Source: Loxodes magnus
Taxonomy: Eukaryota; Ciliophora; Karyorelictea; Loxodida; Loxodidae
Length of the DNA: 64,000 nucleotides
Reading direction: 5' to 3'
NCBI GenBank assembly: GCA_946699065.1
Contig: CAMPDV010000432.1
Span: 186,001-250,000, forward strand
Under the pieces are notes generated by a model, which saw nothing but the letters and a program-made list of their open reading frames with translations, searched no databases and was not told the origin of the DNA. The translations under genes and the position numbers were made by a program. Positions 1,334 through 64,000 of the stretch are shown in pieces (the first letter of the stretch is position 1; every line of letters starts with the position of its first letter).

Positions 1334-3547
1334 TCATATAAACTTAGATTGATTAGATTAATTATTTCTGATTTTAAATTTCCTCAATTTCTTTCCATAT
1401 CTGTCTCTGTCAAAGAAATAACTTTATATATAACTATCAATGCATTCCTTACTTGTACAGAGATGTAAACATTCATCGCTATCTGTTAAAATAGCAGGCA
1501 AAGATGGCTATCCGTTAACAAAATAAGGATAATTACCCTAAGGTAGTTCCATTCTGTTTTTCTTTTCTTATTCCTTGTTTTTTAGTATTTAAAGCTTTTG
1601 GAGATTCTCTTCACTATTTTTTTTCATGTACTCAAAATGGGTTGATTCGTTAAATCCTAGATGTAAGCATCTTGCAACTACTGGAGCAATATGTGGTCTT
1701 TGATACAATTTTTTGAATACATTTTCTAAAAAAAGAGCTTAATCAAGTCAAAAAAATTCAGATTGTCAAGATGAATACATATACTAAGGTAAAATCCATT
1801 ATGTTTTCCTAGTACTTTTTGTATGAAATCAATTTCACTTTTAGTCTACATCAGGCTATACTTTTATGCATTTTCTATTATCTGTTGAAGATATCTACAC
1901 AAATGACACCATTTTCCCCATCTATGGATTATAGAACCAGTAACTGTATGAGTATAGTAAATATTCATATAAATCTTCAGAAAACTCCAAATCATCATCA
2001 GAGAAAACTACTGCAGGAGGATTTATATAGTTTAAAGTGAAGTTCATAGCAAACATTATATGACGATTTATTCTATGAACCCTTAAATAAAGATGCTCGT
2101 TAATAGCTGAAGCTTTAGCTTCAGGGTAATCATTTTATTGAGGGTATTAAATGTACATAATATGAAGGTTTTTAGAATTTCTTTATCAATCTAATACGAA
2201 ATTTTTAAGTTCCTCACTTTCCCCTGCTTATGATACTATAAGCAACGTTTAGTTTATCTTTCTTACCTTTTCTAAAGATTTCAGTGTTTTTTCTAGCATT
2301 TTTATTCTTTTAAATGTTGTTATAACAAAAGGAATGAAGAACTAGGGAAGTTTCTTTCTAATATCTAAGTAAGTTTTATAGTACTGAGTATATAAACTAG
2401 TAGCATCTAAGTCGAAAAAATTGGAGATATTTTGGATATTTTTACTTCAGCTATCATAATGAATAGTTCCTTAGTCATAATCTGTTTCTATAAGATGCAA
2501 GTTTCTTCCTATCTAATACGAAACCTCTACTGAAGTATTAGTAAAAGGCATTTTATCATATCCTCAGAAAGAAAGATTTCATCATTAAATTGTTCTTTCA
2601 ACTCATTTTGAGTATTGAAAGTGAGTTATTCCATAATGACCATAGGGTAAATCAACTTTCTAGATACTTTAGAAGTTAGTGAAAAAGAAATGTCTTAACT
2701 TGACTATTTCATTGTTAAGGATTTAAATAATTTGGCTTTAGCTTAATATACAATCTGTAAGTAGAAAATCGCTATAAAATCCTTTAAAATAATGACCAAC
2801 TTTTTCCTTCATTCCTTGTATATAAGTTTATTTGCTTATAATTCAGCTTCCAAGTCTGAAGAATAGTCCACTCTATACAATTCTATAAATATCAAATTTT
2901 TGATACTTAAGCTACCCGTCCAATCAAAAATTGATTTATTACTAACTTTCTAAGGTACCCAAAGAGGTAAAAGCAACAGTTAAATGAATTCAAGTGTTAA
3001 GTTTAATATTCTAATAAAGAAGCAGTTATGTGCATTTAAGGTCATTACCTAGTTCTATATAAATATCTGAATTGTTTAGATAAAATGAATATCCTCAGTA
3101 GTAAATTGATTATCCACATCCATACAAATTGTTTGAAGCTAAAGTTCCTATTTTATATCTTTCTGATTTATCTCTCCTCACCTATTATTGTTTGTAATCA
3201 ACTTCTTTCATACCCTCCTAAGGTTTAATTTTAATTCAAAACATTAAGGTAACTTCTGGAAAATCCAAAGAACGTATACCCTTTCCAGCAGTTCTTAGTT
3301 ACTTATTAGTTTTAGTAGCGTAATATTTAGAACTATTAAAATATTACTTATAAAACTAATTTTCATCAGGCTAATTCTCTTATGAAGGACTATCTTATCT
3401 TAACGTAATAGAGTATAGTTATGTATCTTTAATTTTCTATAGATAAACAATAGGAGTGCTTATTTTATAGCTTTGCTAAAAACAGTTTAATAGGTAAAAG
3501 TTTAATAGAGCTATTACCGCTATAGCAAGCATCAGTACTTTAATCAT
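1334..3547 (-). CDS. GnT-I-like glycosyltransferase with N-terminal LamG-like domain
   Basis: A 737-residue predicted type II membrane glycosyltransferase. A short cytoplasmic start leads into one membrane segment (residues about 4-20). A jelly-roll, lectin-like region lies at about 90-240, with FWIKIKP, WIHLTVAFTS and NFWLDGQ reminiscent of LamG/concanavalin folds. The catalytic part starts near 400 (FFIPFVITTFKRIKMLEKTL) and carries FSDDDLEFSEDLYEY with the acidic triad at 517-519. This resembles the metal-binding EDD region of MGAT1 and POMGNT1, which transfer GlcNAc to glycans in the Golgi. The frame is uninterrupted from the ATG at 3547 to the UGA at 1334-1336, and many internal UGA codons read as Trp. 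The acceptor is unknown. The lectin-plus-transferase layout parallels POMGNT1, but homology of the N-terminal domain is inferred from pattern only. Confidence 0.8.
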
Positions 3548-36466: not shown

Positions 36467-37492
36467 ATGAAAAACATTAAAAAATGTCTAGGTTAGATTT
36501 TCTATCATTTTTGCTTATTTTATAGGAGCAACTATGAACATTTAAAATTTAAGCAAAATGTTTTTCCAAAACTCGCAAAAAGAAACTATTAGAAGCGCTT
36601 ATTTTTTCAAAAATTTATCTGTATATCTTACTGGCTAAGGATTTCCTTTTATAATTTTTGATGTTTTTATCTCACTTAGAAATTCCTTAGTAATATACTT
36701 TTATGAAAGTAAAGAACTGCCACATAATTAGATCTAATAGCATTTCTTATTTTTTATAAAGAGAACAGAAAATATACTTAAGCTTATGATAAAAGTATAA
36801 AAGTGGTCAATTTCTGCAATATTTTCATACTCTTTAATCTTTCTTACATTAAGAGTCAAAATATAAATTTTTGAAAGATCATCAAGAAAAATAACCAAGA
36901 AAGAAGATTACTAATAAAGCATCGAAAATTTAGCAAAAAATGTTAAGAAGATAAACTATAGTAGAAGAAAAAGAAAATCCATTGAAATTTTGGTAAAAAG
37001 ATTAATAATTAGACTAAAAGTAATTAAATTAGTATTACGATAATAGAAAAAGACGATGAAGCATATGCAACAAGAAAAATAAAAAATTTCAAAAATCTTT
37101 TGGTTATTAATTTAAGGCATATCACTGTAAATTTTTCTATCTTTAGTTACTTTATGATTTGGGTAGTGCTAACTTGCTTTTTGGTATGAAACAAGTATAA
37201 TTTCAAATGCGATGATAATAGAGTTGAAAAAATCTTAAAGGCAATATGTATTTATTACTGGATAGAATAACTTTGCGTCATTATTTTATATGTTCTAACA
37301 GGTTTTTTTGGTGTAAAAAAAACTGTCAGTTAAGATGTTCGTACAAATTATATTGAAAGAAAAGAATTTTTAGAAAAATGATTTCAAGATTCTTTATTAA
37401 TAAGAATTATCAATAAAAATTATTTAAAGAGTCTTCTTATAATTATTTTTTTAGATATAAATCTTTATTTTAAGAACGAATAAAGCTAGTGA
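36467..37492 (+). CDS. Multi-pass membrane protein of unknown function
   Basis: 341-residue protein, not recognised. Hydrophobic segments: FICISYWLRISFYNFWCFYL, LDLIAFLIFY, VVNFCNIFILFNLSYI, then after a basic loop ITVNFSIFSYFMIWVVLTCF and IYYWIEQLCVIILYVLTGFF, with LLIIIFLDINLYF near the end. Charged loops between them (QERRLLIKHRKF, EKDDEAYATRKIKNFKN, VRTNYIERKEFLEKWFQD) speak for a real protein. The frame needs seven or more UGA codons as Trp, and stops at UGA 37490-37492. It starts 168 bases from the divergent Gag-like gene and lies between the two copies of a diverged direct repeat, so it could be cargo of a mobile element. Two other frames are also long, which lowers certainty. Confidence 0.5.
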
Positions 37493-38290
37493 ATGAAATA
37501 ATAATATATATTTAATTCTTACTTTCTTAATTAATAAATAATGAGATTTATATTTATATTTATTATTATTTTTTCTTTTTTATGAATATTACTGAAAGCA
37601 GACGTTCACTTTGCTTTCTTCAAATTTTTCTTAATGCTATGTTATAGAAAACTATTATCTTCCGTTTTAAAGTCACATTTCAGGTTTCTTCATACTCACC
37701 GATTTTTTTAATTCGTTTAATAAGTTTCAGATTAGTATTTTTCAGTTTTTACTCCATTATAAAGATAATAGACATCATTACTACTTAATCAAATTCAAAT
37801 GTCCTGCTCACAAGTCAAACGCGCAATTGCTCATACATGACATGTTTTAAATTTTTAGACTTTCAACTGCTTTAGGAGTTTCTGTTATTTGTTTCTGTCT
37901 CTTTCAAGTTTTTATTTAAGGTTTTTTAGGCTTTCCTGCAAGAAGATTAATTAGAGGAAGATGTGTGATAATTATTTAACGTTTCTTAACTTTTCTCTTA
38001 CTTTAAGAGGTTATAAAAAAGTATTTTTTGAAACTTTCTTTCATTTTTGTTATAAATAAATAAATTTGATTAAAGAGCGCGTAGTACTGTAATGGAGCGC
38101 AGCCCATTTAATATTAAAAAGCGCTCTCATATTTTATTTTTCCAATGAATAATCTCGCTTTTTTCAAATGGAGAACTTGCTTATTAAAGTTTATTCTTGA
38201 TACTTGAACCTAATTCTCAAGTCTTCTTGAATAAAAGTTAACTAAGAATTTGTAATTAAGTCATTGTCAGGCACTTCATTCGAACGTTCA
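37493..38290. other. Intergenic with a GAGCGC inverted repeat
   Basis: About 800 bases. On the minus strand between about 37560 and 38000, several overlapping frames read as coiled-coil or basic protein, but none is clearly best. A 7-bp inverted repeat (AGAGCGC at 38074-38080, GCGCTCT at 38121-38127) encloses a GC-richer loop. Confidence 0.35.
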
Positions 38291-38436
38291 TACTGCTAGT
38301 GAGAACTCTCAGAAAAGTTAGGCTTATTTCTTCCGAGCTCGTTCACACTTCCCCTTGGTGGCATCTAGTGCGAGATTACTAGCAATGCAGTATAAACTGA
38401 ACCAGGATATCTATTAGTTCCCCCAACCGCGGTTGA
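38291..38436 (-). repeat. GC-richer element, copy B of a diverged direct repeat
   Basis: Second copy of the element at 35229-35365, about 3.1 kb away and in the same orientation. It keeps the GAGAACTCTC, TGGTGGCATCTA, AGCAATGCAG and CCAGGATATCTATTAG blocks. GCATCTAGT...ACTAGCAATGC can form a hairpin. The local GC content is well above the flanks. With copy A it frames the Gag-like and membrane-protein genes. Confidence 0.55.
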
Positions 38437-38836
38437 CATCCATATTTTTTATATATAATATAATTTATTTTATTGAAAATTATTATCCATTTTATTTCTG
38501 CTAACTTTCGTAAAACAAAATTCAATTAAATTTTTTAAAAATTTTTAAGAAAAATTTTTTTTTTTTTCATTTTCATAAATAAATAAAAATAGTCTTTCAA
38601 CATAATAAATAAGAAGCTGTTAAAAATTAAAATCAAAAAAATAATCAAAATCAATAAAATTAAAGAAACTATAAAGTATAAATTTTATTATTTCTACTAA
38701 CTGCAAATAAAATAGCGATTTTTTTATTTTATAACTGTTTTAAATAAGGAATCAAATTAAAATTTAAGTTTGCTTCTTTTGAGATTATTTAATTCATTTT
38801 GTCTTAATTAAAAAATTAAATTATTTTAAAAAAAAG

Positions 38837-39597
38837 ATGGAAATGAAAAAGAATTTTATCTGTCTATATATTCAGCAAGAAATGCAAATCGAAAAGAGAA
38901 TAAAGAACTAGAGAAGAAGTAGAAAGGAAAAGCACTATCATAAAGTTCCTCTTTAGAAGGCAAAATAGAGGTTGGACAAATTGATGCAAGCACTTCGATC
39001 TTAACCGAAATGAAAAGGTTGAAAAATTTAATTTCTAAATATGAAGAATAAATATAAATTTAAGGAGAAAGAATTAGAGAATTTAAGAATAACATTGAGG
39101 ACTAAAATAGTGATTTATTAATTATTAGGTAATAACTTATATAAAAAAATGTTGTGAAAGAACAATAGCTCAATATCATCTTCCAGAAAAATTTCAAGTA
39201 AGGAGTAAATTTGATTATTGAATTCATCACTTCTTAAACGTAAGATCAAGAAATAATTATTGAATAAAAAAATGATATAAGTTTAATTCAAAGAATAGAA
39301 GAAATAGAAAAATATATTTTACTGCGTGAATTAGAAAAAATAGACAAAAAATTGTAAGCTGTAACTCGAAATATCACTTATTAAAAAATTGCAAAAAATG
39401 ATAAAATTTGAAAAAAAGAGAAAAAAAAATATGAAGGATGTTGAAAAAGCTTTAGATAAACAATTCTGGAATTAAAAAATGAAAATTATTTAATAGATAC
39501 ATGAAAAATTTTTTGTGTAGCCAGTCACACTCAAAAAAATGATGATGTGTTCCTCCATGTAAAAAAAAGAGGAAGCGAAATCGGTTGGAATAATTGA
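38837..39597 (+). CDS. Coiled-coil protein of unknown function
   Basis: Not recognised. The body reads as a charged coiled coil: LEGKIEVGQIDASTSILTEM, KNLISKYEEQIQIQGERIRE, NNIEDQNSDLLIIRQQLIQK and IQRIEEIEKYILLRELEKID, ending VFLHVKKRGSEIGWNN before UGA at 39595-39597. No ATG lies at the start of this frame. A start at 38837 (MEMKKNFI) joins it if a 14-nt intron with GT...AG ends (38862-38875) is removed, giving 248 residues; otherwise the first in-frame ATG is at 39010. The giant WD40 gene begins 125 bases downstream in a different frame, so the two could be exons of one gene if an intron was missed. UGA is Trp at several places. Confidence 0.6.
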
Positions 39598-39721
39598 GAG
39601 CTCCAAAAATTTTTAACATTTAGTTAATATTATTATAATTTAAAAAAAAAATTATTGTTGAATTTGATCTTGTTTGAGACTAACTTATTATTTAAAATAA
39701 ATAATTTTATTATATATAAAA

Positions 39722-42700
39722 ATGGCAATAAAGAAAAATTTAATGCTTAACAAATTCAAATAACTTGCCAGACCTTTCTAACGACGTCTTTTTGCAGCAA
39801 TTGGAATTCTAAAAGATAGCAAAAAAAGTTTTAGACGTGAAGTAAATAACCTAATCATTAATGCTAACAATTAAACATTTGTTAAATTAATAACATCAAT
39901 ATAAAATTTAAAATAAGCAAACATCTTCTTTAGAGATGAAAAAATAAATTATACTAAATAAATGGAATTAAAGACAAAAGTTTGACCAGAGAATAAATTA
40001 ACATAAAAAAATTCAACTTAATATACGAATGGAAAATAATGAAAAGGAATGTAGGATCCGTCTCTGCAATATTAAAATAGTATAAAAGATGTTGAAACTG
40101 TAAAAAAACATTAAAGGTAAAACAATGCAAAAAATCGAATTGAAAAAATATTCACAAACAAACATAAAAAACTATTTAAGATCTATTGCATAACAAAGGA
40201 ATGAATATATAAAATAATGAATTTTAAACTTTCGTTGAATTTATAAAAATTAGCTCTGCTTGAAATAATTTAAGAAATAAAAATAGAATTTAATATCCAA
40301 GAATTAAAAAAAAAAACGATACGTGTATGGAATTTCCAATCTGGCAGTTGTACGAGAACCTTGACTGGACACGAGAAGTCAGTTTTAGCGATCGCTTTAA
40401 GTTAGGACTTGAAATGGATTGTCTCAGGCAGTTGAGATACAACGATACGTGTATGGAATTTCCAATCTGGCAGTTGTACAAGAACCTTGACTGGACACGA
40501 GAAGTCAGTTGGAGCGATCGCTTTAAGTTAGGACTTGAAATGGATTGTCTCAGGCAGTTGAGATACAACGATACGTGTATGGAATTTCCAATCTGGCAGT
40601 TGTACGAGAACCTTGACTGGACACGAGAAGTCAGTTGGAGCGATCGCTTTAAGTTAGGACTTGAAATGGATTGTCTCAGTCAGTTGAGATACAACGATAC
40701 GTGTATGGAATTTCCAATCTGGCAGTTGTACGAGAACCTTGACTGGACACGAGAATTGAGTTGGAGCGATCGCTTTAAGTTAGGACTTGAAATGGATTGT
40801 CTCAGGCAGTTGAGATACAACGATACGTGTATGGAATTTCCAATCTGGCAGTTGTACGAGAACCTTGACTGGACACGAGAAGTCAGTTGGAGCGATCGCT
40901 TTAAGTTAGGACTTGAAATGGATTGTCTCAGTCAGTTGAGATACAACGATACGTGTATGGAATTTCCAATCTGGCAGTTGTACGAGAACCTTGACTGGAC
41001 ACGAGAATTGAGTTGGAGCGATCGCTTTAAGTTAGGACTTGAAATGGATTGTCTCAGGCAGTCTCGATACAACGATACGTGTATGGAATTTCCAATCTGG
41101 CAGTTGTACGAGAACCTTGACTGGACACGAGAAGTCAGTTTTAGCGATCGCTTTAAGTTAGGACTTGAAATGGATTGTCTCAGGCAGTTGAGATACAACG
41201 ATACGTGTATGGAATTTCCAATCTGGCAGTTGTACGAGAACCTTGACTGGACACGAGAAGTCAGTTTTAGCGATCGCTTTAAGTTAGGACTTGAAATGGA
41301 TTGTCTCAGGCAGTTGAGATACAACGATACGTGTATGGAATTTCCAATCTGGCAGTTGTACGAGAACCTTGACTGGATACGAGAATGCAGTTTGAGCGAT
41401 CGCTTTAAGTTAGGACTTGAAATGGATTGTCTCAGGCAGTCTCGATACAACGATACGTGTATGGAATTTCCAATCTGGCAGTTGTACGAGAACCTTGACT
41501 GGACACGAGAAGTCAGTTTTAGCGATCGCTTTAAGTTAGGACTTGAAATGGATTGTCTCAGGCAGTTGAGATACAACGATACGTGTATGGAATTTCCAAT
41601 CTGGCAGTTGTACGAGAACCTTGACTGGACACGAGAAGTCAGTTGGAGCGATCGCTTTAAGTTAGGACTTGAAATGGATTGTCTCAGGCAGTCTCGATAC
41701 AACGATACGTGTATGGAATTTCCAATCTGGCAGTTGTACGAGAACCTTGACTGGACACGAGAAGTCAGTTGGAGCGATCGCTTTAAGTTAGGACTTGAAA
41801 TGGATTGTCTCAGGCAGTTGAGATACAACGATACGTGTATGGAATTTCCAATCTGGCAGTTGTACGAGAACCTTGACTGGACACGAGAATTGAGTTGGAG
41901 CGATCGCTTTAAGTTAGGACTTGAAATGGATTGTCTCAGGCAGTTGAGATACAACGATACGTGTATGGAATTTCCAATCTGGCAGTTGTACGAGAACCTT
42001 GACTGGACACGAGAATGCAGTTTTAGCGATCGCTTTAAGTTAGGACTTGAAATGGATTGTCTCAGGCAGTTGAGATACAACGATACGTGTATGGAATTTC
42101 CAATCTGGCAGTTGTACGAGAACCTTGACTGGACACGAGAAGTCAGTTGGAGCGATCGCTTTAAGTTAGGACTTGAAATGGATTGTCTCAGGCAGTCTCG
42201 ATACAACGATACGTGTATGGAATTTCCAATCTGGCAGTTGTACGAGAACCTTGACTGGACACGAGAAGTCAGTTGTAGCGATCGCTTTAAGTTAGGACTT
42301 GAAATGGATTGTCTCAGGCAGTTGAGATACAACGATACGTGTATGGAATTTCCAATCTGGCAGTTGTACGAGAACCTTGACTGGACACGAGAATTGAGTT
42401 GAGCGATCGCTTTAAGTTAGGACTTGAAATGGATTGTCTCAGGCAGTTGAGATACAACGATACGTGTATGGAATTTCCAATCTGGCAGTTGTACGAGAAC
42501 CTTGACTGGACACGAGAAGTCAGTTGTAGCGATCGCTTTAAGTTAGGACTTGAAATGGATTGTCTCAGGCAGTTGAGATACAACGATACGTGTATGGAAT
42601 TTCCAATCTGGCAGTTGTACGAGAACCTTGACTGGACACGAGAAGTCAGTTGGAGCGATCGCTTTAAGTTAGGACTTGAAATGGATTGTCTCAGGCAGTT

Positions 42701-45083
42701 GAGATACAACGATACGTGTATGGAATTTCCAATCTGGCAGTTGTACGAGAACCTTGACTGGACACGAGAATTGAGTTGGAGCGATCGCTTTAAGTTAGGA
42801 CTTGAAATGGATTGTCTCAGGCAGTTGAGATACAACGATACGTGTATGGAATTTCCAATCTGGCAGTTGTACGAGAACCTTGACTGGACACGAGAATGCA
42901 GTTTGAGCGATCGCTTTAAGTTAGGACTTGAAATGGATTGTCTCAGGCAGTTGAGATACAACGATACGTGTATGGAATTTCCAATCTGGCAGTTGTACGA
43001 GAACCTTGACTGGACACGAGAAGTCAGTTGGAGCGATCGCTTTAAGTTAGGACTTGAAATGGATTGTCTCAGGCAGTTGAGATACAACGATACGTGTATG
43101 GAATTTCCAATCTGGCAGTTGTACGAGAACCTTGACTGGACACGAGAATGCAGTTTGAGCGATCGCTTTAAGTTAGGACTTGAAATGGATTGTCTCAGGC
43201 AGTTGAGATACAACGATACGTGTATGGAATTTCCAATCTGGCAGTTGTACGAGAACCTTGACTGGACACGAGAAGTCAGTTTTAGCGATCGCTTTAAGTT
43301 AGGACTTGAAATGGATTGTCTCAGGCAGTTGAGATACAACGATACGTGTATGGAATTTCCAATCTGGCAGTTGTACGAGAACCTTGACTGGACACGAGAA
43401 TTGAGTTGGAGCGATCGCTTTAAGTTAGGACTTGAAATGGATTGTCTCAGGCAGTTGAGATACAACGATACGTGTATGGAATTTCCAATCTGGCAGTTGT
43501 ACGAGAACCTTGACTGGACACGAGAATGCAGTTTGTAGCGATCGCTTTAAGTTAGGACTTGAAATGGATTGTCTCAGGCAGTCGATACAACGATACGTGT
43601 ATGGAATTTCCAATCTGGCAGTTGTACGAGAACCTTGACTGGACACGAGAAGTCAGTTGGAGCGATCGCTTTAAGTTAGGACTTGAAATGGATTGTCTCA
43701 GGCAGTTGAGATACAACGATACGTGTATGGAATTTCCAATCTGGCAGTTGTACGAGAACCTTGACTGGACACGAGAATTGAGTTGTAGCGATCGCTTTAA
43801 GTTAGGACTTGAAATGGATTGTCTCAGGCAGTTGAGATAGAACGATACGTGTATGGAATTTCCAATCTGGCAGTTGTACGAGAACCTTGACTGGACACGA
43901 GAAGTCAGTTTTAGCGATCGCTTTAAGTTAGGACTTGAAATGGATTGTCTCAGGCAGTTGAGATAGAACGATACGTGTATGGAATTTCCAATCTGGCAGT
44001 TGTACGAGAACCTTGACTGGACACGAGAATGCAGTTTGAGCGATCGCTTTAAGTTAGGACTTGAAATGGATTGTCTCAGGCAGTCTACGAGATACAACGA
44101 TACGTGTATGGAATTTCCAATCTGGCAGTTGTACGAGAACCTTGACTGGACACGAGAAGTCAGTTGGAGCGATCGCTTTAAGTTAGGACTTGAAATGGAT
44201 TGTCTCAGGCAGTTGAGATACAACGATACGTGTATGGAATTTCCAATCTGGCAGTTGTACGAGAACCTTGACTGGACACGAGAATTCAGTTGGAGCGATC
44301 GCTTTAAGTTAGGACTTGAAATGGATTGTCTCAGGCAGTTGAGATACAACGATACGTGTATGGAATTTCCAATCTGGCAGTTGTACGAGAACCTTGACTG
44401 GACACGAGAAGTCAGTTGGAGCGATCGCTTTAAGTTAGGACTTGAAATGGATTGTCTCAGGCAGTTGAGATACAACGATACGTGTATGGAATTTCCAATC
44501 TGGCAGTTGTACGAGAACCTTGACTGGACACGAGAATTGAGTTGGAGCGATCGCTTTAAGTTAGGACTTGAAATGGATTGTCTCAGGCAGTTGAGATACA
44601 ACGATACGTGTATGGAATTTCCAATCTGGCAGTTGTACGAGAACCTTGACTGGACACGAGAATGCAGTTTGAGCGATCGCTTTAAGTTAGGACTTGAAAT
44701 GGATTGTCTCAGGCAGTAGAGATACAACGATACGTGTATGGAATTTCCAATCTGGCAGTTGTACGAGAACCTTGACTGGACACGAGAAGTCAGTTGGAGC
44801 GATCGCTTTAAGTTAGGACTTGAAATGGATTGTCTCAGGCAGTCTCGATACAACGATACGTGTATGGAATTTCCAATCTGGCAGTTGTACGAGAACCTTG
44901 ACTGGACACGAGAATTGAGTTGGAGCGATCGCTTTAAGTTAGGACTTGAAATGGATTGTCTCAGGCAGTCTCGATACAACGATACGTGTATGGAATTTCC
45001 AATCTGGCAGTTGTACGAGAACCTTGACTGGACACGAGAGAAGTCAGTTACGTTATGGCGTAATCGCTTTTAACTTTTTTTGA
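39722..45083 (+). CDS. Giant WD40-repeat protein with 38 near-identical, hypervariable repeats
   Basis: From the ATG at 39722, about 200 residues of unknown basic sequence lead into 38 tandem WD40 repeats of 42 residues. Each repeat reads DTTIRVWNFQSGSCTRTLTG, then HExxVxAIALSQDLKWIVSGSx, with the classical GH, structural Asp and WN (WD) positions. The repeats are almost identical in DNA. Changes fall mainly at four codons: Lys/Asn, Ser/Trp/Ala and Leu/Gly/Trp/Val around the V after GHE, and Trp/Leu/Arg just before the Asp. Trp is UGA in nearly every repeat. Three indels break the frame: one base lost near 42399, one gained near 43536, and two lost near 43583. Thus only the first 17 repeats are in one frame with the start. 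The last repeat is truncated and ends in UGA at 45081-45083. Thirty-eight repeats would make five or more propellers. Confidence 0.8.
40317..45052 (+). repeat. Tandem array: 38 copies of a 126-nt WD40 unit
   Basis: Period 126 bases throughout (copies begin about 40317, 40443 and so on, last about 44980). Exceptions are a 125-base copy ending near 42400, a copy with one base added and one with two removed near 43536-43583, and a 129-base copy near 44090. There are 17 copies before the first frame break, 9 before the second and 12 after. Copies also lie at 57925-58526 in another gene. The antisense strand is also free of standard stops for long stretches, which is a by-product of the period. 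Confidence 0.97.
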
Positions 45084-48000
45084 AAAAGATATTTATTTTT
45101 TTGTAAATTTTTCGAATTTTTCAAACATATTCAATTCTTCGCTTGTTTTAATTTTTATTATCTTTTTTTTTTGAATATTTTTATATTTTATTTTTTTTTA
45201 TTTTTTTTAATACTTTTACAATGTTAATTTTTTACTTTTTATTTAATATACATACTTGATTTAATTTTTTAATTTTTTACGAAGTATTTATTAGTTTATT
45301 TTATATTCTTCTTTTAATTTTTTTCTCTTTCATTTACTTTTCCATTAAAAAAAATCATAAAAGATTACACACTATTTTCAAAAAATCTCAAAAATTAAAT
45401 TTATTCTTTTTGATTTATGCTCTATTTTAAAAACTCATTACAATCGATAAGAACTTAAAGTAAGAGCATTTTTTTTAGATGAAATATTTTTTAATCACTC
45501 ATATCTATATATCTTATAATTTGCAGATGTTCAAGTTGTAAAGTTATTTACTCATGTCTATTTTTATGAACATTTCAATTTTTATAAGGATGATTGAGCA
45601 TTGCATTGACAAGACGAAAAGTAAATTAGAAATTTAGTTTTAAGACTCAATATTTAAAAGAAAACCTTTGAAAACTCATATATGGAACTCCAATCGAATT
45701 TTATTAATATGAAAAGACTTTTTCTTTAACAAGAAATTGATTCTGCGTTTGCAACAGCACTTTATTTTTATGACATTAAAATCCTCTAAAAAAATAGAAA
45801 TGTGTATTCGAAGAATCGTTTTCTAATCACAACTGAAGATGCTAGCTACTTAATTCTGCTCGTCATGAAAGGGGAAAATCTGACAATAAAATTCTAAATT
45901 CAGATTATATAAGATAGAAGCCAAGGAAAAAAACAATGCAAAGACAGGACATACATGAACGATGATTTTATACATTTAAAACTTAGATCAAGCCGAAAGG
46001 CGAACTGTTATTAAATGTTTTATTTTTTTTAATAAATAAGTGGATAAAAGATTTAGAGAATTTTACGACATGTTTTAGATCTAGATTTATTCAATGTTTT
46101 CAGTCACATCTATGTTTTTACATGCACCTTTTTTTGTTTTTTTTTATACAAGCTTAACGTAGTTATACATTTTTTTCTTTTTTCAACAATTTTTTTCCAT
46201 TATTTTTTTTAAAGTTTATCAAATAAAATTTTATCTTTAAGAATATATCTGAGATGTAAAGAGAGAGTCTTTACTTTTCAGAGTCTTATTTAAAAAATAG
46301 TTTCTCAGTTTTTTTTGACTAAAAGATATTTTGTTCATTCTTTGATTTATTCTTATTTTTTTATTAGAGTTTAATTTTTTTTTCGCTTTTATTTAACATT
46401 TTAGTAGAAATTTTATTAACGTATTTACTTAAATATTTATATTTCTTTAACTTTTTTATTTTTTTTATTTATTTACCTTTGTTTTTCGATGTTCAATCTT
46501 TCATTTTTTTTCTTAAGTTATTTTAAGATACTATTATTATGTGTTTTTTGTTCCTCTTTTTTAAATGTAAAATATTTCTAAATTTTTCACTTTTACTACA
46601 ACAATAAAGATCTATACATAATTCGATGTAATTTATCTCAACTATTGGATTCTGCAAATTTAAAATTTATGTTTATAAAGTTGAGTCTTTTATTTAAAAA
46701 AAAAAATCATCTTTTTATTATTTTTTTTATTTTTACTCAAAAACTTTTATTTTCTTTTGTTGAGTGCATTGCATCAAACTTTTTTTAAAATAAAATACTC
46801 AGAAGATGATTCTTTTATAAGTCTTCAAGCTTTGATTATTCTATAGCCTTTTTTAAGATTTATATCATATAAATCATTTTATTTTATAATTTATTTTGTT
46901 TATTAAATATTAATGGAAAATTATTTATATAAGGATAACCTATTAACCTGAACCAAGATTAGATATCTTTTGATTTCCTTTCGAATCAAGTTTTTCCTCA
47001 ATCTATTATTTTTAAAAGATTTGATTTCTATTTTTTACATTTTTTTTCATTTCTCTATCTAACTTTAATTTGATTATTCAGTCTATAAGTAGCAATTTCC
47101 TAATTTTCTTAAAAATTATGATATCAAACTTTAAATCCTTTCCTGTATTTTAGGAGCTTAAAGTATGATTCATTCACATGATAAATGCTTCTCATTATAT
47201 AAACTTTAATTTATATTTCTATATTTAATGAATGGAACTCATAATTGTAATTTAATTACTAGTTTTCTAATTATTAGTTAATATTTTGTAAATAAATTAA
47301 AAGTTTTATTATTTTATTAATTAATGTGTGAGAAATTCCCATTTCAAAAGTTTATTTTAGAAGGTTTAATTTTAGTTTTGTATAAGCAATATGATTTATT
47401 CCCAAATTATCTATATTACTAAGAAATTAATTTATTGATAAAGCATTTATTATTTAAATGTAAAACTTGATGCTAAATGCTTTAAATTATATTATTGAAT
47501 ACTTATTCATATGGAGGTTTTTGTATCTCATTTTTTTTTATTATATAAGATTTTTTAGCTCAATTAAAAGTTTAATCATAGTCTTGCTTGATTATTTACT
47601 TTCTTTATAGTTCAAAGAATTTTTAGAAAAATTATTTTACTATTAATAGTTTCTTATTTATGCCTAATATTAAGAATTTTAAGAGCTCTATATATTGACT
47701 ATTAATTCATAAAAGTTTTACTTATTTTTCTTCCTTGCTCTTATTTTATATTTAATCTTAATATTCAAATTATTGTCCTATAGAACCTTATTTTGTTTCA
47801 TCAGCTATTTATTACTTAAAAACAGCAATATCTAATATTTAAATTTTTTCATTGTAGAATTTTTTTTGGCAGACAACTATCAATGGTTTTTTTTAATTTC
47901 ACTTGAAAAACCTATTTTTTCTATATAAGCAAATTTCATTATTTAAGCATTTGTTTAAAGATCTAAATAGAATAATCTTTCATTTTATACTACTATAGTT

Positions 48001-56956: not shown

Positions 56957-58799
56957 ATGGTTTCGGCAAGAGAAAGTGAATACATCATTTAAGGTTCGTA
57001 AATTTAAGAGTTAGACAAGATTGATGAGGGTAGTTTCGGTGTGGTTTACAAGGGTCTGATGTAAGGTTGTATTAAGGTAGCGATCAAGAAGCTTTACAAC
57101 TAAAGTATATCTTAATAAGCGAAAAAGGATTTGGAGTAGGAGATAGCTTTGACTTAGAAAATGAGGCATCCGAACATCATAACAGTATATGGTTACTGTT
57201 TATCTCCATTGTAATTGATAATGAAGTATTTGCCTTAAAATTTATTTAGCTTGTTGCACAACGAGTAGGAGTTGTTGTGGGAATTGCGTTACAAAATAAG
57301 TTTGGATATAGTTCTTGGTTTGTAGTACATTCATCAAAGAAGTATCATCCATAGAGATCTAAAAAGCAACAATATCATGTTGAACGATAAGTTTAAGGCT
57401 AAGATAACGGATTTTGGTTTATCGAGGGTGAGAACTGAGTCTAGGTCAATAAAATCGAACAGGTAGGTGGGCAACATTCGTTGGATGGCGCCGGAGTTAA
57501 TGGACATAGAGCCAAACTATAGTCAGTAATCTGATATATTTGCCTTAGGGGTAATCTTTTGGGAGATAGCAACTCGCGAGGTACCTTTTCTGCATTCGGA
57601 AGATCGTTACATAGAAAAGGGGATAAAAAAGGGTAGGAGAGAAAAAATTCCTAGTGATTGTCCCTGTGAGTATGGTTAGATAATATAAGGATGTTGGTAA
57701 TAAGATCCTTTATAGAGAGTTGAGCTTGAGGTAATAAAAGGTCAGTTGGTAGAGTTGTTAAATCTGAATCGGGGTTAGTAAGTTGTGGTAAAGCCAGTTT
57801 TGCCAAATATATCTTCCAATCTATAAAATTTGAAAATAGTGGAAGAAAATAAAACTTAATTTGAAGGCTAAAAAATGTACGAAATAGGTTACGATTAAAG
57901 TCAAGGTAAGCATTTAAAATTTAGATTAAGTTTTGACTGGACACGAGAATGGAGTTGGAGCGATCGCTTTAAGTTAGGACTTGAAATGGATTGTCTCAGG
58001 CAGTCTCGATACAACGATACGTGTATGGAATTTCCAATCTGGCAGTTGTACGAGAACCTTGACTGGACACGAGAATTGAGTTGGAGCGATCGCTTTAAGT
58101 TAGGACTTGAAATGGATTGTCTCAGGCAGTCTCGATACAACGATACGTGTATGGAATTTCCAATCTGGCAGTTGTACGAGAACCTTGACTGGACACGAGA
58201 ATGGAGTTTGAGCGATCGCTTTAAGTTAGGACTTGAAATGGATTGTCTCAGGCAGTCTCGATACAACGATACGTGTATGGAATTTCCAATCTGGCAGTTG
58301 TACGAGAACCTTGACTGGACACGAGAAGTCAGTTTGAGCGATCGCTTTAAGTTAGGACTTGAAATGGATTGTCTCAGGCAGTGGAGATACAACGATACGT
58401 GTATGGAATTTCCAATCTGGCAGTTGTACGAGAACCTTGACTGGACACGAGAATTCAGTTGTAGCGATCGCTTTAAGTTAGGACTTGAAATGGATTGTCT
58501 CAGGCAGTAGAGATACAACGATACGTGTATGGTCTTTCTCAACTGGTGAGTTAATTCGAACTATCAATGGGCATTCGGACGTTGTGCGAAGTATTTGTTT
58601 AAGTAACGACATGAACTTTATATTTTCTGGATCTTACGACAAAACAATCAAGATTTGAAATTTTAATACGGGTGATTGTATATAGACATTATAAGGACAC
58701 ACAGGTGAAATAATTTCAATAGCATTGAGTAAGGACAACAAGTGGTTGGTATCTGGTTCTGCTGACACAACAATAAGAAAGTGGAAGGTTTCGAATTGA
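56957..58799 (+). CDS. TKL-like protein kinase fused to a seven-blade WD40 propeller
   Basis: 607-residue fusion. The N-terminal kinase (about residues 18-285) is complete: DEGSFGVVYKG glycine loop, VAIKKLY Lys, SIIHRDLKSNNIML catalytic loop, ITDFGLSRV, RWMAPELMD, SDIFALGVIFWEIATREVPF. The sequence is of the TKL/receptor-like type and should phosphorylate Ser/Thr. A 19-nt intron (57906-57924, GT...AG) shifts the frame into the WD40 part. Seven WD40 repeats follow, the number for one closed propeller. The first five are the same homogenised 126-nt unit as the giant array, differing at the same few codons (NG/NW/NG/KS/NS after GHE; Leu, Leu, Leu, Gly, Arg before Asp). The last two (NGHSDVVRSICLSNDMNFIF and LQGHTGEIISIALSKDNKWL) are ordinary diverged blades. 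No membrane segment. Stop UGA at 58797-58799. Codons are richer in G and C than in neighbouring genes. Confidence 0.93.
57925..58526 (+). repeat. Five homogenised WD40 units shared with the giant array
   Basis: Period 126; almost base-for-base the same as units at 40317-45052 except at the variable codons. The first unit begins right after a 19-nt intron; the fifth grades into diverged sequence at about 58527. Confidence 0.95.
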
Positions 58800-58829: not shown

Positions 58830-59452
58830 GTTTAAAGTATCAAAGTATTAAAGTATTAAGTTATTAAAGTATTAAGTTATTAAGTTATTAAAGTATTAAG
58901 TTATTAAAGTATTAAGTTATTAAAGTATTAAGTTATTAAGTATTAAAGTATTAAAGTATTAAGTTATTAAAGTATTAAGTTATTAAAGTATTAAGTTATT
59001 AAAGTATTAAGTTATTAAAGTATTAAGTTATTAAAGTATTAAGTTATTAAGTTATTAATTAAAGTATTAAGTTATTAAGTTATTAAGTTATTAAGTTATT
59101 AAAGTATTAAGTTAAGTTATTAAGTTATTAAAGTATTAAAGTATTTATTAAAGTTATTAAGTTATTAAGTTATTAAAGTATTAAGTTATTAAAGTATTAA
59201 GTTATTAAAGTATTAAGTTATTAAAGTATTAAAGTATTAAAGTATTAAAGTATTAAAGTATTAAGTTATTAAAGTATTAAAGTATTAAAGTATTAAGTTA
59301 TTAAAGTATTAAGTTATTAAAGTATTAAAGTATTAAAGTATTAAGTTATTAAAGTATTAAGTTATTAAAGTATTAAGTTATTAAAGTATTAAAGTATTAA
59401 AGTATTAAAGTATTAAGTTATTAAGGTATTAAAGTATTAAAGTATTTAGTAA
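58830..59452. repeat. AAGTATT/AAGTTATT short-motif satellite
   Basis: About 620 bases made almost wholly of mixed 7- and 8-base units, TTAAAGTA and TTAAGTTA variants, with no G/C clusters. Starts 30 bases past the kinase-WD40 stop. Noncoding; perhaps a structural or matrix-attachment-like tract, but no function is shown. Confidence 0.95.
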
Positions 59453-59658
59453 ATTAAAAAATATGTTAAAGTTTTTTTTTATTTTGTGTTAATGGTTTTT
59501 TTAAGATTTAATAGTTATTTATTAAGGTTGAGTTAAATTTAAGTTAAGTTTATATTTCTATAAAAAAGGAGTCAACGTACTTCATTAAAGTTTAAAGTTT
59601 AATTGTTTTTTTTTTAGTAGTTTGTATTTGTAATAATTAGTTAAGTATTTTATTTAAG

Positions 59659-59817
59659 TTTTAAAAAACGGCTAGTTAAAACTGTTATTTTTTTTAATTT
59701 AGGAATTTTTTAGGTAATTTTATTTTAAAGTGTATGTGATTTTTTTTAGACTTAAGTTCTAAGTAAAGTTTTTAAATTTAAGTAATGAGTTAGGATTTTT
59801 TTTGAATGGACAGTTTA
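59659..59817. repeat. Imperfect direct duplication, copy 1
   Basis: About 155 bases, beginning AAAAAACGGCTAGTTAAAAC and ending near GAATGGACAGTTT, repeated with few changes at 59930-60093. Noncoding. Confidence 0.9.
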
Positions 59818-59929
59818 GGATTTTTTTCTAGTTTAATGGTTTAATTTCTAGTTTAAAGAGTTTAATTTCTAGTTTAATTTCTAGTTTAATTTCTAGTTTA
59901 ATTTTTTAAAATTTTTAAAATTTTTTTTA

Positions 59930-60093
59930 AGTTCTAAAAAACGGCTAGTTAAAACTGCTATTTTTTTTAGCTTAGGAAATTTTTTAGGTAATTTTATTTT
60001 AAAGTGTATGTGATTTTTTTTAGACTTAAGTTCTAAGTAAAATTTTTAAATTTAAGTAATGAGTTAGGATTTTTTTTTGAATGAACAGTTTAA
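59930..60093. repeat. Imperfect direct duplication, copy 2
   Basis: Second copy of the element at 59659-59817, separated from it by a GTTTAATTTCTA-type microsatellite. Confidence 0.9.
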
Positions 60094-60279
60094 GATAATT
60101 TATATTTTAATTTTTTTAATTTTTCCATTAAGTCAAGCATTGTAATATTTTTTTAATTTGAGTGACGTAGCATATGTTTTTTTTAAGTAAGTTATTAATT
60201 TTGAGTGTATTTCCGATAGTAAAAAGTTTTGATAATTTTTTTTCTATTTTTTCATGAGATAGAAGCCTGAAAATGGTAA

Positions 60280-60400: not shown

Positions 60401-60760
60401 TTATTTAAAAGGGTCTTGAAAATTTTTGAAATTGGTTTTGAAAATTTTTGAAATTGGTTTTGAAAATTTTTGATATTGGTTTTGAAAATTTTTGAAATTG
60501 GTTTTGAAAATTTTTGATATTGGTTTTGAAAACTTTTGATATTGGTTTTGAAAATTTTTGATATTGGTTTTGAAAATTTTTGATATTGGTTTTGAAAACT
60601 TTTGATATTGGTTTTGAAAATTTTTGATATTGGTTTTGAAAACTTTTGATATTGGTTTTGAAAATTTTTGATATTGGTTTTGAAAATTTTTGATATTGGT
60701 TTTGAAAACTTTTGATATTGGTTTTGAAAATTTTTTAATTGGGATTTGAAAATTTTGATA
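60401..60760. repeat. 22-nt minisatellite
   Basis: About 16 copies of a unit like TTTTGAAAATTTTTGATATTGG. Its minus strand is open for 150 codons under the standard code (KNFQNQYQKFSKP periodicity) only because of the repeat; not supported as a gene. Confidence 0.9.
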
Positions 60761-60954
60761 TTTGAATTGAATATTTTTGACTTTGATTTTGAAAATTTTG
60801 ATTTTGGTTTTGAATTGTGTCCATATTTTAAATTTATATTTTGAAATTTTCATGTTTTATTTTTTGTGAATTTTTTTTTAAAATAGGTTTTGTCAAATTT
60901 TTGATTTAAATCTTATTTTAGCGCTATTTGATTCAAATTGAAAAAATAAAAAAG

Positions 60955-61562: not shown

Positions 61563-64000
61563 GAAAAAGGAAAAAAAATAATCAAAAACTCTGTTTTTAA
61601 AGGTAAAGATAAAATTTTGGAGAGCAAGAATAAAAAAATTCGAGGCATAAATTAAAAAAAAAAGTAAAAAACTAGTAAAATCAAAAAAAAGGTAAAATAT
61701 ACATATTCTTTAAATAAAAAAACAATCAATGAAAAGTAAGAAATAGAATCTGAGTATCAATTTCACTAAGTAATTGAAAGTTATCAAATACTGGAAGTTA
61801 AAAATGAAAAGATTTGTAAGAAAATTGAAGAAGAAAAGTAAGAAATAGAGTCTGAGTATCAATTTAAAAAAGTAATTGAAAGTTATCAAATACTGGAAGT
61901 TAAAAATGAAAAGATTTGTAAGAAAATTGAAGAAGAAAAGTAAGAAATAGAGTCTGAGTATCAATTTAAAAAAGTAATTGAAAGTTATCAAATACTGGAA
62001 GTTAAAAATGAAAAGATTTGTAAGAAAATTGAAGAAGAAAAGTAAGAAAAAGAGTCTGAGTATCAATTTAAAAAAGTAATTGAAAGTTATCAAATACTGG
62101 AAGTTAAAAATGAAAAGATTTGTAAGAAAATTGAAGAAGAAAAGTAAGAAAAAGAGTCTGAGTATCAATTTAAAAAAGTAATTGAAAGTTATCAAATACT
62201 GGAAGTTAAAAATGAAAAGATTTGTAAGAAAATTGAAGAAGAAAAGTAAGAAAAAGAGTCTGAGTATCAATTTAAAAAAGTAATTGAAAGTTATCAAATA
62301 CTGGAAGTTAAAAATGAAAAGATTTGTAAGAAAATTGAAGAAGAAAAGTAAGAAAAAGAGTCTGAGTATCAATTTAAAAAAGTAATTGAAAGTTATCAAA
62401 TACTGGAAGTTAAAAATGAAAAGATTTGTAAGAAAATTGAAGAAGAAAAGTAAGAAATAGAGTCTGAGTATCAATTTAAAAAAGTAATTGAAAGTTATCA
62501 AATACTGGAAGTTAAAAATGAAAAGATTTGTAAGAAAATTGAAGAAGAAAAGTAAGAAAAAGAGTCTGAGTATCAATTTCACTAAGTAATTGAAAGTTAT
62601 CAAATACTGGAAGTTAAAAATGAAAAGATTTGTAAGAAAATTGAAGAAGAAAAGTAAGAAAAAGAGTCTGAGTATCAATTTAAAAAAGTAATTGAAAGTT
62701 ATCAAATACTGGAAGTTAAAAATGAAAAGATTTGTAAGAAAATTGAAGAAGAAAAGTAAGAAAAAGAGTCTGAGTATCAATTTCAAAAAGTAATTGAAAG
62801 TTATCAAATACTGGAAGTTAAAAATGAAAAGATTTGTAAGAAAATTGAAGAAGAAAAGTAAGAAAAAGAGTCTGAGTATCAATTTCACTAAGTAATTGAA
62901 AGTTATCAAATACTGGAAGTTAAAAATGAAAAGATTTGTAAGAAAATTGAAGAAGAAAAGTAAGAAAAAGAGTCTGAGTATCAATTTAAAAAAGTAATTG
63001 AAAGTTATCAAATACTGGAAGTTAAAAATGAAAAGATTTGTAAGAAAATTGAAGAAGAAAAGTAAGAAAAAGAGTCTGAGTATCAATTTAAAAAAGTAAT
63101 TGAAAGTTATCAAATACTGGAAGTTAAAAATGAAAAGATTTGTAAGAAAATTGAAGAAGAAAAGTAAGAAAAAGAGTCTGAGTATCAATTTCACTAAGTA
63201 ATTGAAAGTTATCAAATACTGGAAGTTAAAAATGAAAAGATTTGTAAGAAAATTGAAGAAGAAAAGTAAGAAAAAGAGTCTGAGTATCAATTTAAAAAAG
63301 TAATTGAAAGTTATCAAATACTGGAAGTTAAAAATGAAAAGATTTGTAAGAAAATTGAAGAAGAAAAGTAAGAAAAAGAGTCTGAGTATCAATTTAAAAA
63401 AGTAATTGAAAGTTATCAAATACTGGAAGTTAAAAATGAAAAGATTTGTAAGAAAATTGAAGAAGAAAAGTAAGAAAAAGAGTCTGAGTATCAATTTAAA
63501 AAAGTAATTGAAAGTTATCAAATACTGGAAGTTAAAAATGAAAAGATTTGTAAGAAAATTGAAGAAGAAAAGTAAGAAAAAGAGTCTGAGTATCAATTTA
63601 AAAAAGTAATTGAAAGTTATCAAATACTGGAAGTTAAAAATGAAAAGATTTGTAAGAAAATTGAAGAAGAAAAGTAAGAAAAAGAGTCTGAGTATCAATT
63701 TAACTAAGTAATTGAAAGTTATCAAATACTGGAAGTTAAAAATGAAAAGATTTGTAAGAAAATTGAAGAAGAAAAGTAAGAAAAAGAGTCTGAGTATCAA
63801 TTTAAAAAAGTAATTGAAAGTTATCAAATACTGGAAGTTAAAAATGAAAAGATTTGTAAGAAAATTGAAGAAGAAAAGTAAGAAAAAGAGTCTGAGTATC
63901 AATTTCACTAAGTAATTGAAAGTTATCAAATACTGGAAGTTAAAAATGAAAAGATTTGTAAGAAAATTGAAGAAGAAAAGTAAGAAAAAGAGTCTGAGTA
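61563..64000 (+). CDS. Repetitive coiled-coil protein (34-residue repeats), partial
   Basis: A plus-strand frame reads a Lys-rich lead (KDKILESKNKKIRGINQK) and then about 22 tandem 34-residue repeats of the form EEEKQEKESEYQFKKVIESY followed by QILEVKNEKICKKI, with UAA as Gln, and runs off the window. The repeat is highly charged with spaced Ile/Leu/Val/Tyr, as in long coiled coils. Variation is small (EI or EK after Gln; FKK, FHQ, FNQ or FQK), so the array is recent or homogenised. The 5' end is not determined: no in-frame ATG lies just upstream and the start given is only where the frame becomes convincing. The minus strand is also open under the standard code (a Phe/Leu-rich 739-codon frame), but that translation is low complexity and I reject it. 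A structural role is inference. Confidence 0.5.
61740..64000 (+). repeat. Tandem array of a 102-nt unit
   Basis: About 22 nearly identical copies with a strict 102-base period (34 codons), continuing past the window end. Two of the three plus-strand frames contain no UGA. The main variable sites are AAATAG/AAAAAG and a TTTAAAAAA/TTTCACTAA switch. Confidence 0.97.

Follow-up and report, generated by a model that had tools for sequence, protein, structure and literature searches.

The HNWD genes of Podospora anserina (het-d, het-e, and het-r) carry WD40 units of 42 amino acids that are homogenized by exchange within and between genes, and inactivated members of the family also keep intact repeats (available text of PMC1805685 and PMC2873952). 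We describe here a locus of the ciliate Loxodes magnus with WD40 units of the same length and variable residues at the same sites. It differs from HNWD in that a kinase replaces HET and NACHT, the host is a ciliate, and the intact gene holds one propeller accompanied by a very long orphan array. Repetitive blades also occur in the highly repetitive WD40 protein of PDB entry 2YMU, which we take to be a Nostoc protein. Fusion of WD40 repeats to a kinase is shared with prokaryotic kinase-WD40 proteins (as far as described in the available part of PMC5587647); relative to these and to 2YMU, the locus described here has an apparently TKL-like kinase, TGA as the codon for variable-site Trp, and a separate array of 38 units. 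In the LRR genes of Tetrahymena, 90-bp exons are repeated in long rows, an example of expanding, fast-evolving repeat-domain genes in a ciliate, and WD40 and kinase are among the domains of its species-specific genes; unlike the present case, these are LRR and exon arrays, without a homogenized top-face pattern in the text of PMC6564038 available to us. Judged by title, none of the papers listed in literature searches that covered few subscription journals dealt with Loxodes WD40 proteins or ciliate WD40 kinase repeats.

In the window, by which we mean the whole stretch of 64,000 nucleotides that was analyzed, Tandem Repeats Finder detected a long array of a WD40 unit (Table 1), in agreement with the 38 near-identical units counted in an earlier note on this DNA. 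We anchored 37 units, of which 32 have the full 126 nt, 4 carry indels (125, 127, 124, and 129 nt), and 1 is terminal and degenerates toward its 3′ end; a partial unit lies upstream of them. The unit translates as DLKWIVSGSWDTTIRVWNFQSGSCTRTLTGHEKSVGAIALSQ if TGA codes for Trp and both TAA and TAG code for Gln. The array begins and stops abruptly, and its bulk has a GC content of 40 to 44%, compared to 19 to 29% in other 2-kb bins outside 40 to 46 kb. Internal conservation is high, with a mean pairwise identity of 94% among 16 protein units (ORF P0123). Higher-order repeat structure among the blades never rose above shuffles at lags 1 to 12, and an exact 25-base core of the unit was absent from the viral contigs searched.

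Table 1. Positions of the repeat arrays, array indels, and genes within the window
Feature	Coordinates	Strand	Details
WD40 unit array	40315..45049	+	Period 126 nt, 37.6 copies, 96% matches (Tandem Repeats Finder)
1-nt deletion, array unit 16, R1 codon	42401..42402 (approximate)	+	Closes the first WD40-frame stretch
1-nt insertion, array unit 25, R1 codon	43535..43537 (approximate)	+	
2-nt deletion, array unit 26, D-1 codon	43583..43585 (approximate)	+	New WD40 frame kept to the last unit
3-nt in-frame insertion, array unit 30, D-1 codon	44085..44090 (approximate)	+	
Kinase plus seven-bladed WD40 propeller gene, 607 aa, intact-looking	56957..58799	+	Stops with TGA at 58797; putative start codon and intron, read from sequence
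Kinase domain	57011..57745	+	PK_Tyr_Ser-Thr, E 1.3e-55 (Pfam); GSFGVV, VAIK, HRDLKSNN, DFG, APE
Putative 19-nt intron, GT...AG	57906..57924	+	Would join kinase to WD40 frame; propeller on its own exon
Copies of the array's WD40 unit in the kinase gene	57933..58532	+	4.8 copies
Last part of blade five and two further blades, all diverged	58533..58796	+	GH at 58569 and 58695; TGA at the conserved WD tryptophan of blade six
102-nt unit array	61731..64000	+	34-aa unit resembling a coiled coil by eye; 98% matches; extends beyond the window
GNT-I-like glycosyltransferase frame	1472-3319	minus	15 TGA and 2 TGG codons

Variation was counted in the 32 full 126-nt units; the four with indels and the degenerate terminal one were excluded. 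Twelve of the 126 columns vary, 8 of them within codons 10, 33, 34, and 36, which make up 12 nt, and 4 in the remaining 114 nt (Fisher p = 1.7e-7, for codons that the earlier note had named from these same data). These four codons hold 65 of the 71 variant cells, and the 6 cells outside bear out the remark that change elsewhere is rare; an even spread over codons was not seen, and 1 of the 4 outside columns is synonymous. Variation is common at unit nt 28 to 30 (D-1), 99 to 101 (beside and at R1-2), and 106 to 107 (R1). Provided that TGA is Trp, the residues listed earlier were read correctly: W, L, or R at D-1, KS, NW, NA, or NS after GHE, and G, L, W, or V after the following Val. The comparison of nonsynonymous and synonymous change proposed in that note gave mostly nonsynonymous differences, with pairwise means of 3.09 and 0.25, respectively (pN = 0.032, pS = 0.0086, pN/pS = 3.7). 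There are 13 unit types. All four combinations occur in 20 of 45 column pairs in a four-gamete test, and therefore recombination has taken place inside units.

The motif GCGATCGC, which is presumably the cyanobacterial HIP1 palindrome, lies at unit nt 109 to 116, and all of its 42 occurrences in the window fall in the array (37) or the kinase gene (5); this pattern may reflect chance within one amplified unit or hint at a foreign origin.

R1 is located near the point where strand a begins, with R1-2 preceding it by two residues and D-1 preceding the tetrad Asp by one (PMC3419727, available text). Codons 36, 34, and 10 correspond to R1, R1-2, and D-1, confirming the assignment of the variable codons to published top-face hotspots, and codon 33 adjoins R1-2. 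In HNWD, codon 8 has codons 7 and 9 as neighbors, and codon 26 has 25 and 27 (PMC1805685, available text). Because the Val-Asp spacing in the Loxodes unit is also 18, its codons 34, 36, 10, and 12 can be equated with HNWD codons 7, 9, 25, and 27. The first three vary commonly in the array, and the last (codon 12) does so in 2 of 32 units. Seven codons vary nonsynonymously, and the probability that these include all four HNWD sites by chance is 3e-4. The earlier comparison with fungal HNWD/HET NLR receptors thus holds for the unit and its variable sites and fails for the remaining domains, as HET, NACHT, and NB-ARC were not found in the kinase gene or beside the array.

We also compared the array with 74 other tandem WD40 proteins taken from the matches listed, each with four or more gap-free 42-aa units; this set was retrieved by words in common with the query, which may favor conserved positions elsewhere. 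The same four positions were the most variable in this set, followed by the equivalent of codon 12, and the rank order of the five positions was unchanged in the 28 proteins whose mean unit identity is 0.6 or higher and in the 16 that reach 0.7 or more. Since the codons vary likewise in these proteins, they mark the binding face; this alone is no proof of a diversifying receptor.

The array of 102-nt units in the same window behaves alike. Its 21 complete units have 4 variable columns, all nonsynonymous, 3 of which lie in two adjacent codons (KK, HQ, QK, and NQ). A weak DnaJ match in this array fell below the cut-off. Recent expansion from few founders may thus yield focal variation here in the absence of any known binding face, and so it may explain part of the WD40 pattern. 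Extended to the whole locus, a neutral account would start from a handful of founders whose top-face residues were already unlike; unequal crossing-over would have copied and mixed these few differences during a rapid recent expansion, with no current selection for diversity and with the kinase gene encoding an ordinary signaling protein. We regard this as possible though rather unlikely. The small numbers of variable columns and unit types and the decayed 3′ end of the array agree with it, as do the 102-nt array and the other tandem WD40 proteins that vary at the same sites. Founder differences at the four most variable WD40 positions would, however, still imply past selection on the binding face, and the kinase gene has additional combinations at the same sites.

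The variable columns have 13 alternative bases, of which 10 are transversions, and one three-base change, TGA to CTC, coincides with substitution sites. At codons 34 and 36, the third base is A in 32 of 32 units. Diversity-generating retroelements make substitutions at template adenines and have a reverse transcriptase and a template repeat close by; columns in the array alternate between several bases (G/T, C/G, and A/C), and no reverse transcriptase was detected in the stretches of the window scanned for domains. A local DNA-level process that makes substitutions and indels at these codons, with selection merely filtering its products, would account for the coincidence of indels and the TGA-to-CTC change with substitution sites, for the many transversions, and for the constant third base. 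However, the sites coincide with positions set by the protein fold, they have no common DNA motif by eye, and a consensus artifact is a simpler account of the indels; such hypermutation is accordingly very improbable.

The earlier note took the array to be a receptor gene, a view that its frameshifts and surroundings weaken. The WD40 frame is open from 40317 to ~42402, so that about 16 units share one frame, before the first of three frame changes; these changes, a further 3-nt indel, the degenerate 3′ end, and the second locus described below go beyond that note. All four indels in units 1 to 36 fall in variable codons (p of about 8e-5 under random placement). They could have arisen by wrong repair between unlike units or be a consensus artifact of mixed units. 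If the latter, the array might be an intact giant WD40 gene of about five propellers whose indels are assembly or consensus errors from mixed unit reads. Averaging of variants would place the indels in variable codons, and the long first stretch in one frame would be expected. Against such a gene, nothing above the Pfam cut-off lies beside the array on either strand (six frames of 37400 to 40314 and 45050 to 47700, where NACHT and NB-ARC were likewise absent; the array itself was matched), and the array has an abrupt start and end and a degenerate 3′ end. AlphaFold2 gave no confident fold for 728 residues from 40217, in the first array stretch (pLDDT of 44), a weak argument because a low score says little for long identical repeats. 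We consider the giant gene unlikely; the array is probably not translated now as one intact protein. Sub-threshold matches beside the array were to DcuA_DcuB (13.6 bits; cut-off, 27) and DUF7448 (15.2 bits; cut-off, 27).

About 12 kb downstream of the array, a kinase-WD40 gene contains the same unit; a search for further genes carrying it had been proposed in the earlier note. Its four full units that were compared differ from the array consensus at 0 positions outside the variable codons. Only 1 of its 5 top-face combinations is also found in the array. Further copies in the 64-kb window, sought more than 200 nt away from the arrays, were limited to chance-level matches of 14 to 15 nt, and the 1-kb flanks of the two loci share matches of 14 and 22 nt alone. 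The proposal that the repertoire was built by repeat exchange is supported by the recombinant column pairs. The recurrence of the unit 12 kb away would be expected from exchange between the loci and equally from a recent copying event.

The catalytic motifs of the kinase domain are present. TKL, STY, and Blepharisma kinases are among the 120 matches listed, and their names (Saprolegnia TKL and plant STY kinases) suggest a TKL-like kinase. Pfam recognized seven WD40 stretches in the gene and no HET or other cell-death effector, NACHT, or NB-ARC. AlphaFold2, run without an alignment, modeled the propeller with 28 strands and a pLDDT of 93 in the best of five models (the others scored 90, 84, and, in two poor cases, 47.9 and 36.1). 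The predicted structure resembles those of LIS1 and WDR5 (TM of about 0.95) and is also close to designed WRAP propellers, and its variable residues are located where strand a begins and just past strand b. The model is consistent with a closed seven-blade propeller, which the putative intron would place in the same reading frame as the kinase. A diversifying receptor, as envisaged in the earlier note, is thus better sought in this gene than in the array, though the gene is no NLR.

Several other repeats lie downstream of the gene. An 8/16-bp minisatellite (58832 to 59446) starts about 30 nt past its stop codon, a direct duplication of ~230 bp (59618 to 59847 and 59894 to 60122) is 88% alike, and a 22-bp repeat present 18 times at 60412 to 60814 has minus-strand open frames.

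Introns in the E1 and GDH genes and the putative one in the kinase-WD40 gene are 16, 16, and 19 nt long, and all three genes end in TGA. The E1 protein had 92 matches, the best with 55% identity, and fungi, Strombidium, and Paramecium were among the sources, without pointing to one group. Loxodes magnus introns have a mean length of 19.3 and a mode of 17, with those below 16 negligible (PMC11441545, available text). TGA usage and the short introns fit genetic code table 27 and the L. magnus or karyorelict type described there, and TGA seems to be read as Trp or stop. Within the 32 full array units, conserved Trp is encoded by TGG in 64 of 64 cases and variable-site Trp by TGA in 39 of 39. Were TGA a stop here, both WD40 stretches would be dead. 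The counted E1, GDH, and kinase stretches have no in-frame TGA (the GDH stretch starts right after one), and the Pfam-matched part of the GNT-I-like frame holds just 1 of that frame's 15 TGA codons, as such a reading would have it. Nevertheless, TGA stands where blade six has its conserved Trp and also at hotspots prone to Trp, that one codon does lie within the GNT-I-like match, two more lie inside the Pfam-matched part of an ATG27-like frame, near its ends, and the kinase-WD40 gene is otherwise open. We therefore find a stop-only TGA scarcely credible. The scan of the window for tRNAs and for Rfam families at the gathering score returned none.

We give an even chance to the explanation that the kinase carries a WD40 module whose repeats are shuffled as in HNWD and that the array alongside is an orphan. 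The sequence itself shows unit identity across loci, focal nonsynonymous variation at the top face, within-unit recombinants, and an open kinase-propeller gene. The array and the kinase gene would draw on one homogenized WD40 unit, with TGA as Trp or stop; the kinase gene, its blades one to five built of the shared unit, would be the working member, and the 38-unit array an expanded orphan from the same unit pool. Through exchange of units inside each locus and from one to the other, the scaffold would stay identical and the residue combinations at R1-2, R1, and D-1 would be reshuffled. We infer that the top face of the propeller binds a partner and that the kinase then relays the signal; selection for diversity and continuing exchange are conjectured in the same way. 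The limited overlap in top-face combinations, the likeness to the 74 proteins, the 102-nt array, and the 13 alternative bases all count against this explanation. In a variant that we consider improbable, the array serves as a silent reservoir from which top-face variants reach the kinase propeller by gene conversion. Frameshifts would be harmless in such a reservoir because it only feeds the kinase gene, and the reassignment of TGA would help because, at the variable codons, the mixes of G and T at positions one and two followed by A are all sense (Trp, Leu, Val, and Gly) only if TGA is Trp.

HNWD-type repeat shuffling is already known in fungi as a route to recognition repertoires. If the shuffled module on a ciliate kinase is real, homogenized WD40 units with a free top face would seem to be a more general solution. 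The use, in the full array units, of TGA for every variable-site Trp and of TGG for every conserved one would tie repeat diversity, testably, to the reassignment of a stop codon, and the locus offers a concrete place to ask whether single-celled eukaryotes maintain diversifying receptors.
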